Virus record (IMG/VR): IMGVR_UViG_3300046467_000682
Coordinates: 1 to 20,358 of that record
Reading direction: 5' to 3' (one strand)
From: a virus
DNA length: 20,358 bases
Position numbers and translations under genes: made by a program. Under the pieces are notes generated by a model, which worked only from the letters and a program-made list of their open reading frames with translations, made no database searches and was not told the DNA's origin. Every line of letters starts with the position of its first letter. Position 1 is the first letter of the stretch. This document shows, piece after piece, positions 5,275 to 17,191 of the stretch.

Positions 5275-6015
5275 TTAATTTCTCACTAAACTAACAAATT
5301 CTTGTACTACTCTATCAACATATTTTGGTTCAATATATCTAATTACATGCTTATCTTCGTTTAACTCTCTTTCATAATCTAAATTAGTTACAGGGGTATT
5401 ACCTGTAGCTACTGTTGTTTTGAGATTATTTGAATCAGTATAATGATGAATAGCATTTTGTTCATCTACAACAGAGGATATTGTAAAACTCTTTTCTGAA
5501 TCAGCACCTGTTGCTGTACTGTTAGTTGTAAATGTTCCTAACACACTATTTAATGTTATTCTATTATGTGTTGGGTTTACATCAGTTACAAATCCATATA
5601 CTGATGATGATTGAGAAACCTTTTCTCCTAATGTAAATTTACTTGATTCTTCGTTTACATGATCGTATGAAACTATATCTGTTGATGAAGAAGCTTCTAA
5701 ACAAGTACCTGAATATTTTCTATCCATGTATTTAAGAAAAAGTTGATTTGATTTTGGCCAATCATTAAAGTCTTGTAAGTTCTCATTAACTAAAAAGAAC
5801 AACCAATATAATGTGCCATCACCATAAAGTTTTGATGCTACAACATCAGGTCTTTCACCTTCTGTAATTCTATAATAATTATATCCTGTAATACCGTCTT
5901 GTAAATAACTCCATGTAGATACTTTGCGAAATAAATCTTTTGCTTTAAAATACTTACCATCACTTTTAAAATCATATTGAATACTGGGAATATGTTTAAA
6001 AAATCCTTTTGCCAT
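5275..6015 (-). CDS. gp53: Baseplate wedge protein gp53
   Basis: The 246-residue product is longer than T4 gp53 (196 aa) but starts with the characteristic block FFKHIPSIQYDF (residues 5-16), then a LysM-like segment YYRITEGERPDVVASKLYGD and GTLYWLFFLVNENLQDFNDW (about 47-86). gp53 clamps adjacent wedges together around the hub during the last step of wedge assembly. The extra length lies in a Ser/Thr-rich insert (about residues 105-205) with short beta-prone stretches, before a conserved-looking C-terminus (KHVIRYIEPKYVDRVVQEF). The start codon overlaps the gp48 stop by one base, so translation is probably coupled. The order gp48-gp53-gp27-gp5-gp25-gp6 is a coherent baseplate operon. Confidence 0.9.
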   Translation of the reverse strand: MAKGFFKHIPSIQYDFKSDGKYFKAKDLFRKVSTWSYLQDGITGYNYYRITEGERPDVVASKLYGDGTLYWLFFLVNENLQDFNDWPKSNQLFLKYMDRKYSGTCLEASSSTDIVSYDHVNEESSKFTLGEKVSQSSSVYGFVTDVNPTHNRITLNSVLGTFTTNSTATGADSEKSFTISSVVDEQNAIHHYTDSNNLKTTVATGNTPVTNLDYERELNEDKHVIRYIEPKYVDRVVQEFVSLVRN

Positions 6016-7178
6016 TAGTCTGAATCCTCAGTTTCTTCTACAGGATTATCTTTTTTTATTTGTGCTAGTTCTGCTGATACAGAATTAGAAACGGCACTAA
6101 ATTTTCTTTCGTCTTGTGTTTGTTCTCTTGCATTACTACCTGTATTAGCAAACGCAGAAACTCCACCTCCATATTTCTTTCTATCTAATGTAGATGTTTC
6201 TACAAACTCTAAAGTCAGAGTAATTGCAGCTGGTGCACCGTCAATCATGTGTGTAAATCCTTGGCCACCTGTCCAATCAACATTAACTCCTGTAAGAACA
6301 GATACTAATGGATAATCTATATAATCTTTAAACGGCCCATGAAATCTAATAGCCCACTCATTAGGGAATGTATATATTCTATCATTGCCTCCTGTTGTAC
6401 CAGGAAGTGCTGATAATCTAAATGCATGAATCATTTCTTTTATTACTGATGATTCTTTTGATGATGTAGGTCTCAACGTAAAATTATAAGAAAAAGTTCT
6501 AAACATCACACCTTTAAATAATTGAAACTTTAATGGATTAACTGTCTTACCCATAGACTGTTTTATTATGTCTCCACCTGGTGCACCACCTATAAGAAGT
6601 TGACCCAATTCTGCCGAATCAGTTCCCGCTCCTGTTGAATCCATCCAGCCGGAAATAAGTCCTTCGATCATTCCTTTCTCTGCTTCTCCATACTCTATAG
6701 TCATATTATCTGTTAAAGCATCTGGAACATAAAGAAATATATCATATTTCTTTTCACCAGCTTTATCTTTTACATTTCTTTCTAAAGATCGGAAGTGAAT
6801 ATAATTTGTTAAATTTCCACCTTCTCCTTTTTCATTTGCAAAGTTTTCAGGGAATTGAAGTTTTATACCAGAATCTGGAGATGCATCGGATCTACCACCC
6901 ATTGCATCATTAAGAACTTTTGCTCTTGCTTCTCTATTTTTTCCTTTCATATCCATTACTTGAGATGATATCTCAGGAATGTTTGATGTTCTAATACCTG
7001 TAGCTCCAGTCAATAAGTCACCTAAACCATCTGCAATTCTTTGATCAAAAGTATTTGAAACAGCAGACATACTACCTAACTTACCTTTTAATTGTGAACC
7101 TATTGCGTTAGCATCACCTGATACGGAACCTACATAATTAGACAAGGTACCTTTTGCTTTTTTAAATAAATTTCCCAT
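6015..7178 (-). CDS. gp48: Baseplate tail-tube cap protein, gp48-like
   Basis: I place the start at ATG 7178-7176 (387 aa) because AAAGAGAA precedes it and the protein then begins MGNLFKKAKGTL. A longer in-frame start at 7286 would add 36 hydrophobic residues, cross the promoter and overlap gp4 completely. The C-terminal half has the tube-protein fold pattern of gp48/gp54/gp19: FKGVMFRTFSYNFTLRPTSS, then IKEMIHAFRLSALPG, and a final ITLTLEFVETSTLDRKKYG block. gp48 caps the hub and starts tube polymerisation together with gp54. It is the first gene of the leftward baseplate operon. T4 gp48 is 364 aa. gp54 is the alternative, but a separate tube-fold protein at 8934-9539 better fits that slot. 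Confidence 0.78.
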   Translation of the reverse strand: MGNLFKKAKGTLSNYVGSVSGDANAIGSQLKGKLGSMSAVSNTFDQRIADGLGDLLTGATGIRTSNIPEISSQVMDMKGKNREARAKVLNDAMGGRSDASPDSGIKLQFPENFANEKGEGGNLTNYIHFRSLERNVKDKAGEKKYDIFLYVPDALTDNMTIEYGEAEKGMIEGLISGWMDSTGAGTDSAELGQLLIGGAPGGDIIKQSMGKTVNPLKFQLFKGVMFRTFSYNFTLRPTSSKESSVIKEMIHAFRLSALPGTTGGNDRIYTFPNEWAIRFHGPFKDYIDYPLVSVLTGVNVDWTGGQGFTHMIDGAPAAITLTLEFVETSTLDRKKYGGGVSAFANTGSNAREQTQDERKFSAVSNSVSAELAQIKKDNPVEETEDSD

Positions 7179-7216
7179 AAATTGTTCTCTTTGTGTAATA
7201 TATACTATATAGTAGT

Positions 7217-7224
7217 TATTTATG
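7217..7224 (-). promoter_or_regulatory. T4-type late promoter for the leftward baseplate operon
   Basis: Leftward CATAAATA followed by ACTACT lies in the divergent gap between gp48 and gp4. The predicted +1 near 7211 gives a leader of about 33 nt with a ribosome site before the gp48 ATG. It overlaps the gp4 start codon on the other strand. Confidence 0.6.
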
Positions 7225-7677
7225 TCATATAAAGGAAAGTTTAAAGCAAAGAATCCAAATAAGTACAAAGGTAATCCTACAAACATTATTTATCGTAGTT
7301 TATTAGAGCGGAGATTCATGGTGTATCTGGATAATACTTCTTCTGTACTAAAATGGAGTTCTGAAGAAATTGTGGTACCGTATGTTTCACCACTGGATAG
7401 GAGAGTGCACCGATATTTTCCTGACTTCTATATGAAGTATCGAAACGTAAAAGGCGTGATAGTAGAAACTCTTATAGAGGTAAAACCTTCTAAACAAACT
7501 AAACCACCGGATCCTAAAAGAAAATTAACTAAAACAGGTAGAACTTCTAAAAGATATTTAAAGGAAGTTAATACTTATATCATTAATGATGCAAAATGGA
7601 AACAGGCCATTAAATTTTGTGACGAAAGAAGTTGGAATTGGAGAATTGTTACAGAAAAGGATATTAACATCTATTAA
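7222..7677 (+). CDS. gp4: Head completion protein gp4 (PD-(D/E)XK-type fold)
   Basis: The 151-residue product matches T4 gp4 (150 aa) in length and opening pattern: basic MSYKGKFKAKNPNKYKGNPT, then IIYRSLLERRFMVYLD. Residues Glu29, Pro67-Asp68 (YFPDFY) and Glu86-x-Lys88 (LIEVKP) form a PD-(D/E)XK nuclease-like signature, which fits the TnsA-like relation of this family. In T4, gp4 (also listed as 50/65) acts with gp2 to finish the DNA-filled head before tail joining. The start is fixed by the conserved N-terminus, but no Shine-Dalgarno is visible before it, and the ATG sits inside the opposite-strand late promoter. I see no clear rightward promoter, so how it is transcribed is open. Confidence 0.88.
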   Translation: MSYKGKFKAKNPNKYKGNPTNIIYRSLLERRFMVYLDNTSSVLKWSSEEIVVPYVSPLDRRVHRYFPDFYMKYRNVKGVIVETLIEVKPSKQTKPPDPKRKLTKTGRTSKRYLKEVNTYIINDAKWKQAIKFCDERSWNWRIVTEKDINIY

Positions 7678-11931: not shown

Positions 11932-13755
11932 ATGGCTGAAAAAGAAAACTTAAAAGATAGTTTAGATACTGTTAGCAAAAGAATTATTGACAAAGTTAAA
12001 GATGTTCAAAAAGACAATACTAATTCTTTAGGTAAAAAATTTACAGATGGTTTTAACAATACTGTTGATGCTTTGAAAAAGAATGCTGACATTCTTGGAA
12101 ATCTTAAAAGTAATTTCAGTAGCGATATGGGTAAACTGTCAGTTGCCTTCGCCCCCCTTACAGCTATTCCAGGAGTTGAAACTGCACTAGGTCTTATGAA
12201 AAGTGTACTGTCTGCCATTGCTTTAAAAAGTTTATTCTTTCTCAAAAAATTATTCATCGCAGAAGAAAGACATTTAATGTGGCAAAAGATGAAACTTAAA
12301 TGGCAAAAAACAAAGGATAGAGCTGGAAAATTAAAAGAAAGTGGCGCTGGAATAATTAAGGCCGTAATGAAAAACCCAAAGGGAGCATTGGGTTTAGCTA
12401 TAGGTGGAATATTAACAGCTATAATAGTATTCTTTAAAGGATTTGCATCTGGATTTACAGATGGTTTATCTAAACTATTAAAGTTTTTAAAACTAGATAA
12501 ACTCTCTAAATATTTTAAAGGTAAGTCAGTTAAAATGGCTACAAGCATGACTGGTAGTATTACTAAATTCATGACTAAATTTGTTAAGTTCTTTAAACCA
12601 ATCGCTGGATTAACTACAAAGCTACAGCCTGTGATAAAAGCCGTTAGTGGAATAATGAAAGGTATTGGTAAGTTCGGTAGAATACTAGGTAGATTATTCT
12701 GGCCAATTCAAGTAATTATGGGACTTTGGGAAACTGTTAAAGGTGCTATGGCAGGATTCTCTAAATTTAAAGATCAAGGATTCTTAGCTGGTATTTTAGG
12801 TGGTCTTTTGGGGGCTGTATCAGGATTAGTTAAATTCGTTATAGGTTGGCCATTAGATTTACTTAAATCTGCTGTTACTTGGATAGGTGAAAAAATGGGA
12901 TTCGATATGAGTTTCTTAAAAGGATTTTCATTCCAAGATTTGATCGGTGATTTTTATGATAATTTAACACAAGGAATTATAGATGGCTTTAATGCTATAG
13001 CTGAATGGTTTAAAGGATTACCAGATAAAGCTAGATCAGCTGTTGGAGCAATGGGAAGTTGGTTTTCAAATTTACCAGAACAATTTATGAATTGGATTAA
13101 AGGAGCAGTAAGAGCCATACTACCTGATCCTGAAAGTGACAGTTGGTTTGGTTGGGCCGCATCTAAAGTAATTCCTGATGGAATATACAAATGGGCTGAA
13201 TATGGTAAAGAACCAGAAAAAGAAACTAAGGCTGCAGGTGAAGAAGTAGCAGAAACAAAAGGAACATCAAAAGCCTATGAAGGAGTTTTCAAGGATTCAG
13301 GAACAGCTGCGGGTGGAAAAGATGAATATTTTGATGCAGACGGTAATAAAATTACTGACCCAGCTACAATAGCAAAAATGAAAAAAGACACTGCGTGGAT
13401 GGATAAACCTGATAGTGACTTCTGGAATGACAATGATGATGATTGGGATGATGTGAGTCCAAATGCTAAAACTACAGGTGGTACAACAGTTACAGGTGGT
13501 GGTGTTACAATTAGTAGATCAAACTTTGATGCGGCCGCTCCACGAACAGCAGCAGAAATAGCTGAAACTAAAAGAATAGATGCTGAAATGAAAGCAACTG
13601 AAGATGAACTTATGAGAGAGATTGCTGCAGATAAAAAACCGATTATGATTGATCAATCGGTAAAATCAGTTAATACTCAAAAGAAACAAGTGGTCGTATT
13701 AAAAACAAGACCAGTAGATCAAAACACTGCTCAATATGGTATGAAAATTGGTTAA
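11932..13755 (+). CDS. gp29: Tail tape-measure / baseplate hub protein gp29
   Basis: The 607-residue length is close to T4 gp29 (590 aa). Features fit a tape measure: a helical, Lys-rich N-terminus (residues 1-75), long amphipathic helices with tryptophan and lysine, and several Gly/Ala/Phe hydrophobic stretches (about 155-185, GALGLAIGGILTAIIVFFKG, and about 285-318, AGILGGLLGAVSGLVKFVIG) that could enter the host inner membrane on ejection. An acidic, Asp-rich stretch around 500-512 (DNDDDWDDV) and a Thr/Gly-rich part precede a basic C-terminus. In T4, gp29 sits in the tube, sets tail length and helps DNA pass into the cell. It is the last gene of the rightward block and converges on gp32. 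No strong Shine-Dalgarno precedes its ATG, which lies two bases after the MscS-like stop. Confidence 0.82.
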   Translation: MAEKENLKDSLDTVSKRIIDKVKDVQKDNTNSLGKKFTDGFNNTVDALKKNADILGNLKSNFSSDMGKLSVAFAPLTAIPGVETALGLMKSVLSAIALKSLFFLKKLFIAEERHLMWQKMKLKWQKTKDRAGKLKESGAGIIKAVMKNPKGALGLAIGGILTAIIVFFKGFASGFTDGLSKLLKFLKLDKLSKYFKGKSVKMATSMTGSITKFMTKFVKFFKPIAGLTTKLQPVIKAVSGIMKGIGKFGRILGRLFWPIQVIMGLWETVKGAMAGFSKFKDQGFLAGILGGLLGAVSGLVKFVIGWPLDLLKSAVTWIGEKMGFDMSFLKGFSFQDLIGDFYDNLTQGIIDGFNAIAEWFKGLPDKARSAVGAMGSWFSNLPEQFMNWIKGAVRAILPDPESDSWFGWAASKVIPDGIYKWAEYGKEPEKETKAAGEEVAETKGTSKAYEGVFKDSGTAAGGKDEYFDADGNKITDPATIAKMKKDTAWMDKPDSDFWNDNDDDWDDVSPNAKTTGGTTVTGGGVTISRSNFDAAAPRTAAEIAETKRIDAEMKATEDELMREIAADKKPIMIDQSVKSVNTQKKQVVVLKTRPVDQNTAQYGMKIG

Positions 13756-13756
13756 A

Positions 13757-13925
13757 GTGTAGAACTGGCCCCTTGCTCCCGCCGTTACTACGATATCTCC
13801 TGCCGCATAGATACCTTTCCGCTTTTGATATTAAGAATCCCCATTCTTAAAAGTCCCTTCACTTTATGAATAAAGTGATACTGTAGACTGACACGATGCC
13901 TACTTACCCGTATTCCTAGTTAGGT
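13757..13925 (-). ncRNA. Candidate structured noncoding RNA between gp29 and gp32
   Basis: This gap between convergent genes has no convincing protein but much base-pairing. Perfect hairpins are CACTTTAT/ATAAAGTG (13860-13877) and TTAAGAAT-CCCC-ATTCTTAA (13831-13850). Further stems are 13792-13798 with 13809-13815 (7 pairs, one a G-U pair only when read leftward), 13759-13765 with 13784-13791 (7 pairs and a bulge, closing a GGC/GCC stem), and a weak GTAG/CTAC at 13883-13903. The part at 13761-13820 is 33/60 G+C, far above its surroundings. A TATAAATA late promoter (13938-13931) points leftward into it, with +1 near 13925. No T-run ends it on either strand, so they are not plain terminators. 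The 3' end is undefined and may run antisense into gp29. Alternatives: a 3' UTR element or a decayed gene piece. Confidence 0.5.
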
Positions 13926-13946
13926 ATTATTATTTATAATCCTAAC
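13919..13946. repeat. Inverted repeat enclosing a late promoter element
   Basis: GTTAGG (13919-13924) pairs with CCTAAC (13941-13946), and the inner ATTAT pairs with ATAAT around TATTT, with one bulged base: 11 pairs in all. It begins 9 nt after the gp32 stop, where it could stabilise the gp32 mRNA end. It also contains the TATAAATA element on the leftward strand. Confidence 0.6.
13931..13938 (-). promoter_or_regulatory. Leftward T4-type late promoter in the gp29-gp32 gap
   Basis: An exact TATAAATA, reading leftward, lies 17 nt past the gp32 stop, with no coding gene downstream of it on that strand. Transcription from near 13925 would produce the structured segment and then antisense gp29 RNA. 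It sits in the stem-loop at 13919-13946. Confidence 0.5.
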
Positions 13947-13954
13947 GAACTTAC

Positions 13955-14863
13955 TTAAGCGTCTTGAGCAAGTTTTTCAAAATAAGATAATGAATTATCT
14001 TCTTTATTATTACTTGCAGCTACTTGAGCTGGATTATCACTCCATGGTTGTTCATCAGCTGTAGCTACACTACCTACCGAATTATCTTCGGCAATCGTTT
14101 CCGCTGTTGCTGTTGAAACACCATCAAAGCTTAACCCTAGTACTCGTTCCATCTTCTCTTTCAATTCGTCATAAGACTTGAATTGATCTGGAGCTATTAA
14201 CTCTGCGAGAGAATGTTGTTTGTTGTAGACGGACTCAAGTTCAGAATCATCTTCCGACAAAGGAGCCGGAGCTGAGAATTCTGATTTATCATAATTCCAA
14301 TAGCCATCTACTTTTCTGACTTTAAGTTTAAAGTCAGCACCTTCCCACAAATCAAATGGATTGAGTGGATTTTCATCTTCGAATTGAGGTTGCATTACGT
14401 CTTTGACTTTCTCAAAGATTTTTTTACCGAAACGATAAAGCATTACTTTACCTTCAAATTCAGGATGTTTAGGATCTGAAACAACTAGAACATTAGCAAC
14501 ATAGTGTAACCTACGTTTTTGTTTTCTAGCTATATCTTTATTAGCTTCTTCACCAGTGTTCCATAATGTAGTATTATGTTCACTAACTGGATCAGCTTTT
14601 CCTAGTGTTGTTAAAGACTTTTCAATAAACCAACCACCTGGTCCTTGGAACCCATGATCCCAATATTGGATCCATGGAAGTTCTTCTCCGTTGGCTGCTG
14701 GTAAGAAACGAAGGACTGCGTAACCATTACCTGATTTATCAAGTTCTGGTTTCCAGTATCTATCGTCTGAAAAGTTTTTTGTTGAAGCTTCCGAGTCTTT
14801 TTCGAGGGCGGATTGAAGCTTATCAAACCCACTCTTATTACGTTTTAATTCATTAAATGACAT
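13955..14863 (-). CDS. gp32: Single-stranded DNA-binding protein gp32, zinc-less
   Basis: The 302 residues match T4 gp32 (301 aa). Clear blocks are the basic N-terminus (ELKRNKSGFDKL), GNGYAVLRFLPAANGEELPW (residues 45-64), DHGFQGPGGWFIE (69-81), YVANVLVVSDPKHPEFEGKV and MLYRFGKKIFEKV. It coats ssDNA and organises T4 replication and recombination. T4 gp32 binds zinc through His64, Cys77, Cys87 and Cys90. Here the histidine remains (His70) but the cysteine positions read Ser83, Asp91 and Ser94 (DPVSEH), and the protein has no cysteine at all, so it should fold without zinc. The C-terminus is Asp/Glu/Ser-rich, as needed for partner binding. A good site (TAGGAGATAAT) precedes the ATG. It is the last gene of the leftward block, three genes from its partner gp59. 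Confidence 0.95.
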   Translation of the reverse strand: MSFNELKRNKSGFDKLQSALEKDSEASTKNFSDDRYWKPELDKSGNGYAVLRFLPAANGEELPWIQYWDHGFQGPGGWFIEKSLTTLGKADPVSEHNTTLWNTGEEANKDIARKQKRRLHYVANVLVVSDPKHPEFEGKVMLYRFGKKIFEKVKDVMQPQFEDENPLNPFDLWEGADFKLKVRKVDGYWNYDKSEFSAPAPLSEDDSELESVYNKQHSLAELIAPDQFKSYDELKEKMERVLGLSFDGVSTATAETIAEDNSVGSVATADEQPWSDNPAQVAASNNKEDNSLSYFEKLAQDA

Positions 14864-16217: not shown

Positions 16218-16490
16218 TTAATAAAATCTTGTCCTTCGTGTTGACAGCTGATCTCCTTCCCATCTAATTTCTTCTCTACGAATAGCTTCTTTCTTTTTTC
16301 TTTGTCTTTTCTGTGCAGGCTTCTCATAGTATTCCCGCTTTCTTAATTCTTGAACAGTACCGGCGCGTTCAACTTTCTTTTTGAACTTTCGTAACATTTG
16401 ATCAAATGATAAAGGTCTAGGTTTGTTCTTATCGAATTTTTTATTAAAGTGTTTTCTTTGTTGGTAGGGTTTTTGTTGTTGTGGTCTCAT
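16218..16490 (-). CDS. rpsU: Phage-encoded ribosomal protein bS21
   Basis: The 90-residue, very basic protein contains the bS21 core: RPLSFDQMLRKFKKKVERAG (residues 25-44), QELRKREYYEKPAQKRQRKK (48-67) and a C-terminal RRTRFY (85-90). E. coli bS21 has the same order (F-D-x-A-L-R-R-F-K-R...K-A-G...RRREFYEKP...RRTRLY) in 71 residues. The first 24 residues are an added Gln/Lys-rich extension. bS21 sits near the mRNA exit of the 30S subunit and helps start translation; phage copies could replace the host protein and favour phage mRNAs. bS21 genes are known in some marine phages, including Pelagibacter viruses. No Shine-Dalgarno precedes the ATG; the leader is an AT-rich ACAAT repeat. It lies between gp33 and gp59. 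Confidence 0.92.
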   Translation of the reverse strand: MRPQQQKPYQQRKHFNKKFDKNKPRPLSFDQMLRKFKKKVERAGTVQELRKREYYEKPAQKRQRKKKEAIRREEIRWEGDQLSTRRTRFY

Positions 16491-17178: not shown

Positions 17179-17183
17179 ACTTG

Positions 17184-17191
17184 TATTTATA
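17184..17191 (-). promoter_or_regulatory. T4-type late promoter abutting iscU
   Basis: Leftward TATAAATA, then CAAGT and the iscU ATG. The element overlaps the exonuclease stop codon. Layout and bases match the gp25 promoter (TATAAATA-N2-AGT-ATGGC in both), so +1 is predicted on the ATG. Confidence 0.65.

Follow-up and report, generated by a model that had tools for sequence, protein, structure and literature searches.

Comparative evidence for a previously undescribed structured RNA downstream of gp32 in uncultured marine T4-like phages

The DNA following the gene of the single-stranded DNA-binding protein gp32 in a T4-like marine phage almost certainly encodes a previously undescribed, conserved structured RNA, which would be read on the gp32 strand and folded into four covarying stem-loops, P1 to P4. 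In the alignments, invariant segments rich in purines and in G connect these stem-loops. The analyzed stretch, referred to as the window, comprises the 20,358 bases of the IMG/VR record IMGVR_UViG_3300046467_000682. The initial annotation had placed a candidate RNA in a gap between convergent genes, and a gap of about 200 bases is indeed delimited by the stop codons of two convergent ORFs at positions 13755 and 13955. The main features of this region are the following.

11932–13755, plus strand: convergent 607-amino acid ORF of structural type, termed gp29 in the initial annotation; its stop codon abuts the 3′ end of the RNA
13756–13925, minus strand: structured noncoding RNA of about 170 nt, as predicted from alignments A1–A3 and covariation
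13931–13938, minus strand: TATAAATA, putative late-type promoter of the RNA, with an expected start at about 13925
13955–14863, minus strand: gp32 ssDNA-binding protein (Pfam gp32, 3.4e-43), always directly upstream of the RNA
16218–16490, minus strand: bS21-like ribosomal protein gene (Pfam S21, 4.2e-15), upstream on the same strand and co-occurring with the RNA

The 5′ end of the RNA is derived from the promoter spacing and the 3′ end from the point at which conservation stops. Upstream of gp32, the minus strand carries a 240-amino acid ORF, a gp59-like helicase loader, and the bS21 gene. The 607-amino acid convergent ORF has no Pfam match; therefore, the name gp29 is that of the initial annotation only and stays unconfirmed. 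Within the 3′ end of this ORF, about 95 nt beyond the end of the RNA, a weak terminator-like hairpin (13661–13638, minus strand) is found, which could terminate a longer leftward transcript. Elsewhere in the window, a protein with a TnsA-like endonuclease N-terminal domain is encoded at 7222–7677 on the plus strand (Pfam, 3.9e-22). Its gene overlaps the long start of the divergent ORF 6015–7286, the true start of which is probably located further in.

Several properties that had been ascribed to the gap were reproduced. The G+C content of 33/60 at positions 13761–13820 is reached by only 15 of the 20,299 60-mers of the window, the two perfect 8-bp hairpins are found on the minus strand at 13878–13859 and 13850–13831, and the G-U pair that is formed only in the leftward transcript is seen in the stem 13815–13809/13798–13792. 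The exact promoter match pointing leftward into the gap is TATAAATA at 13938–13931 on the minus strand. This octamer occurs five times in the window versus 4.7 times expected by chance; four of the five copies are intergenic and correctly oriented. The z-score of the folding energy is −2.4 for the whole gap of 199 nt and only −0.63 for the 172-nt RNA itself, the minimum free energy of which is ordinary, so that the folding energy of one sequence is a poor indicator here and constitutes weak evidence. Since the folding z-scores are weak and the octamer count is at chance level, it was the comparison with relatives that had to decide.

A search of IMG/VR with the gp32 protein yielded 80 loci, and in nearly all of them the DNA after gp32 is clearly related to the gap of the window. 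Because searching via gp32 alone would introduce a bias, searches of the collection with RNA patterns were added, which returned at least 120 stretches for a group B pattern and 44 for a group A pattern. The relatives fall into three groups, namely, A, to which the window belongs, C, and the more distant group B. According to a profile search of all sequences collected, the RNA is present in at least 253 loci, a number that includes repeats of the same contigs; distinct RNA sequences from IMG/VR contigs amount, among the matches listed, to at least about 120 (39 of group A, 7 of group C, and 74 of group B). Conservation in relatives and occurrence on other viral contigs, which had been proposed as a check of the candidate, are thereby established. 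In the gp32 tree, all carriers are found in one clade with full support. A covariance model built from group B only was applied to 32 sources, among which were the window, loci of groups A and C, and four RNA-less gp32 loci; it gave 12 matches, all of full length and at the homologous place and strand. It scores members of groups A and C weakly (best E 0.016), and the 11.5 bits of the window lie below the 12.3 bits of an unrelated chance match. Homology between groups A and B is therefore based on common position, element order, and motifs.

From its 5′ end, the RNA is predicted to contain the elements listed below, all on the minus strand.

13903–13910: 5′ linker CGGGUAAG; the GGG ahead of P1 recurs in all three groups
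13883–13903: P1 hairpin with conserved GUGUC in its loop; 5 of 6 pairs show changes on both sides in group A
13859–13878: P2a hairpin UCACUUUAUUCAUAAAGUGA, found in group A only and variable in sequence
13831–13850: P2 hairpin UUAAGAAUGGGGAUUCUUAA with a conserved AUGGGG loop
13815–13822: purine-rich linker GCGGAAAG, which is G[AC]GGAAAG in group A and UAAGGGNAAG-like in group B
13792–13815: P3 hairpin, loop with conserved GCGG; 7 of 7 pairs covary in group B
13759–13791: P4 hairpin (GCGGG..GGGGC), in which GC/GC pairs enclose GGG..GGG, followed by the 3′ tail CACUUU

Covariation, which had likewise been proposed as a check, is the evidence on which this structure is built. The same hairpins are obtained in groups A and B when RNAalifold is applied to plain MAFFT alignments. 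In the group B core, changes on both sides are seen in 17 of 21 pairs, and 96.9% of the cells are paired versus 75% in shuffled alignments, none of 500 shuffles being as good; when the partner is offset by one to three columns, the pairing falls to 37–47%. For group A, changes on both sides are found in 13 of 28 pairs, with 98.1% of the cells paired and, again, none of 500 shuffles as good. A tree-aware test, which employs our own tree-based null modelled on R-scape and covers all column pairs, returned eight pairs at E ≤ 0.05 in group B, every one of them inside P2, P3, or P4; in group A alone, which is less diverged and for which the test is underpowered, one pair fell below E 0.05. P1 of group B was assessed by swapping its arms among sequences; stems of at least seven pairs are formed in 60% of the cases with the own arm and in 14% with the swapped one. 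Thus, compensatory changes go beyond what column composition and relatedness would produce, as would be expected of a structured noncoding RNA gene. On the leftward strand, G-U cells outnumber A-C cells by 63 to 3 in alignment A1 (group A) and by 57 to 3 in alignment A3 (group B), from which it follows that the RNA would be read leftward in the window. As an individual deviation, the P4 loop of one locus (L050:4895–5111) is enlarged by a self-complementary sequence inserted after the conserved GGG and before GGGG; hence, this loop tolerates extension.

Noncoding RNAs of phages are already known as a broad class; the present family appears to be new, with no known relative. The initial annotation had not recognised a known RNA family in it. 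At the gathering threshold, Rfam 15 has no match anywhere in the window, and by E-value the best matches of the segment are chance ones (E 0.65 and 2); nothing at E ≤ 1 is found in eight relatives from all three groups. Neither a tRNA nor a tmRNA was detected. BLASTN searches of the RNAs of the window and of groups A, B, and C against 50,697 phage records returned short chance matches only, the group B model found nothing in the four isolate genomes HTVC008M, Mosig, Melnitz, and P-TIM68, and all 13 pattern matches in 257 Gb of cellular genomes from 84,980 species score as chance. Among open-licence papers, including the literature on pelagimyophages, phage bS21, and marine structured RNAs, none was found that describes the RNA. 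By-eye likenesses of P4 to helix 45 of 16S rRNA and of the linker to RNase P RNA were vague, had no support from Rfam, and were dropped. Taken with the conservation and covariation, these searches bear out the initial proposal that the gap encodes a structured RNA not described before and preceded by a late promoter pointing leftward.

The RNA may be compared with several named systems. Like it, manA (RF01745) and wcaG (RF01761) are structured RNAs that comparative genomics revealed in marine metagenomes and in T4-like cyanophages (PMC2864571); they are, however, located upstream of metabolic genes, in the 5′ UTR, and match Rfam models, whereas the present RNA lies 3′ of gp32 and matches neither of their models. 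CfrI of cyanophage S-PM2 is also a noncoding RNA of a T4-like marine phage, with about 225 nt (PMC2984593), but it runs antisense to psbA and to a gene for a homing endonuclease, while the RNA described here is situated in a gap, with a conserved part that overlaps no gene. The L17 downstream element (RF01708) is likewise structured, positioned 3′ of a gene, and assigned to a strand by its G-U pairs (PMC2864571); it follows ribosomal protein L17 genes in Firmicutes and differs in sequence and structure. The OLE RNA, finally, is a structured bacterial noncoding RNA that is bound by bS21 (PMC12054373), a partnership that is only putative in the present case. It is about 600 nt long, occurs in Bacillota, and carries a mimic of the anti-SD (CCUCCU) in its P6; the window RNA has no similarity to it and contains no CCUCC, and none of its relatives searched matches the OLE family in Rfam.

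Concerning expression, TATAAATA is exact in 33 of 33 group A sequences and in all of group C, in a spacer that is otherwise variable, and it is absent from all 55 group B sequences. The octamer thus occupies a fixed upstream place in A and C, as in a T4-type late unit, and does not do so in B; therefore, independent expression of the RNA would not be general. In the group A loci, 241 of 286 copies lie outside ORFs, far above the expectation from a non-ORF share of 13%, about 100 of these non-ORF copies being the RNA promoter itself. T4-like cyanophages use the same late promoter, the consensus of which is TATAAATA in T4 and NATAAATA in S-PM2 (PMC2984593). Because of its conservation in A and C, its enrichment outside ORFs, and its use in T4-like cyanophages, transcription from TATAAATA is likely in the lineage of the window, and a leftward late transcript is very probably made there. 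The octamer preceding the RNA in A and C is identical to that of T4 late promoters; here it is predicted to drive a noncoding RNA. The late promoters of pelagimyophages had earlier been reported as not satisfactorily predictable (PMC7029224).

Two further observations relate to this octamer. In group C (L042–L051), an inverted repeat of 8–10 bp flanks TATAAATA, around which a gp32 read-through transcript could fold; as a feature of the whole family, this element (P0) was dropped, since it is convincing only in that group. Moreover, TATAAATA is often positioned exactly 5 nt ahead of an ATG (9 cases in A, 19 in B, and 33 in RNA-less loci; in the window at 2533–2549 and 17179–17191, both on the minus strand). 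Together with start sites of the T4 type, this would mean nearly leaderless late mRNAs; the spacing may also stem from one or two homologous genes.

It has to be considered whether the RNA is independent at all. Its strongest rival is a 3′-UTR element of gp32, that is, a fold at the end of the gp32 mRNA through which termination, stability, or translation of this mRNA would be controlled by retroregulation, with no role beyond it. In 220 of 223 loci, gp32 is found directly upstream of the RNA, and the remainder are three truncated contigs; in group B the RNA begins a few nucleotides past the gp32 stop codon without TATAAATA. An intrinsic terminator is found within 160 nt of gp32 in 49 of 85 distinct RNA-less relatives and in none of 116 carriers; hence, the RNA has taken the place of the terminator, and transcription coming from gp32 must run into it. 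In the RNA-less loci (L076–L080 and others; also L081, L082, and L084), an ordinary hairpin with a T run occupies the place of the RNA. The RNA itself is no intrinsic terminator of gp32, as a G+C-rich perfect stem followed by a T run is seen in none of the 116 carriers, the tail after P4 being short and only U-rich. Against a mere 3′-UTR element stands the late promoter that is retained after gp32 and ahead of the RNA in groups A and C and from which a gp32-free transcript is predicted; moreover, four conserved hairpins with invariant loops are more than a terminator or an exonuclease block requires. We regard an independent RNA acting in trans as reasonably probable and the 3′-UTR element as comparatively unlikely.

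The downstream context bears on the remaining alternatives. The RNA is followed by the convergent ORF in group A, by bS21 within 22–62 nt in most of group B, and by other genes elsewhere, and it is kept while this context varies. A cis-acting leader of bS21, as in ribosomal protein autoregulation, would agree with the arrangement in most group B contigs; it is nevertheless improbable, because bS21 is located upstream in groups A and C, where the convergent ORF or another gene lies downstream of the RNA, and because some members of group B have a gene between the RNA and bS21. The RNA thus lies in the 5′ UTR of bS21 in most of B and not in A or C. An element acting at the DNA level, such as a replication origin or a recombination or packaging site folding as single-stranded DNA, could be imagined next to replication genes like gp32 and the gp59-like gene, but the wobble bias towards one strand and the conserved, inward-pointing promoter favour an RNA and render it very improbable. 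Still less credible is an antisense regulator of the convergent ORF, an idea that had been raised for gp29. A leftward transcript running past 13756 would be antisense to the 3′ end of this ORF; however, the conserved part stops at the stop codon of the ORF, most carriers have no detectable homologue downstream, and relatives with other downstream genes keep the RNA. A screen for antisense targets, in which duplexes with 28 gene starts were evaluated, gave a single outlier; its start codon is doubtful and lies within an overlapping gene, and this candidate was rejected. Finally, the probability of a decayed or small protein gene is negligible. Individual group B sequences do have one open frame, and in some sequences several frames are open, but the group B lengths, divided by three, leave each of the possible remainders about equally often. 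In group A, any given frame is open along the RNA in at most 1 of 33 sequences. Changes that preserve base pairs dominate. The earlier view that the gap holds no convincing ORF is thus confirmed, and a decayed gene, named there as a possible refutation, is not borne out.

Every sufficiently long carrier contig has a bS21 gene within about 3 kb of the RNA; in groups A and C this gene precedes gp32 by 1.6 kb, and in group B it follows closely behind the RNA. Of the distinct gp32 ends whose flanks are complete, 69 carry the RNA together with bS21, 33 have neither, and none has only one; apparent exceptions are contigs ending 0–15 nt after gp32. In the RNA-less phages HTVC008M, Mosig, and Melnitz, bS21 is located elsewhere in the genome, far from gp32, and no RNA was found near bS21 genes situated away from gp32. 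Since all carriers belong to one gp32 clade, the link counts as one origin and one rearrangement, so that the co-occurrence is suggestive of a functional connection and does not prove it.

An independent late noncoding RNA working as a ribonucleoprotein (RNP), perhaps with the phage bS21, is the reading favoured overall, and its probability as a whole is evenly poised. It is strongly suggested that in groups A and C the RNA would be made late as a transcript of its own, starting from TATAAATA (13938–13931) at about 13925 and running to about 13756, while in group B, where the octamer is lacking, it would ride on a gp32 transcript continuing towards bS21. The RNA would then act in trans as a folded RNP, the G-rich loops of which would bind a protein partner. 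The most likely partner would be the bS21 of the phage itself or a 30S subunit carrying it; bS21 is favoured because its gene co-occurs with the RNA in two arrangements, because bS21 binds the OLE RNA, and because phage bS21 is expressed late (PMC9723584). As the anti-SD mimic of OLE is absent, the mode of binding would differ. An involvement of bS21 is possible, if on balance unlikely, and we consider more tentatively still that a late RNP might guide, store, or titrate bS21, or act on the 30S subunit carrying it, in favour of phage mRNAs. Binding would couple the supply or the activity of bS21 to late phage translation.

The RNA adds a family to those of abundant ocean viruses. It belongs to a clade of uncultured marine T4-like phages, for which no cultured members were found, and it suggests, as far as can be predicted from sequence, that the conserved late promoters of these phages can serve noncoding RNAs. 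Lying near a viral gene for a ribosomal protein, it may have a part in the control that the virus exerts over protein synthesis of the host. If the link to bS21 is true, the RNA would provide a testable handle on why many phages carry bS21 and on how late translation is redirected.
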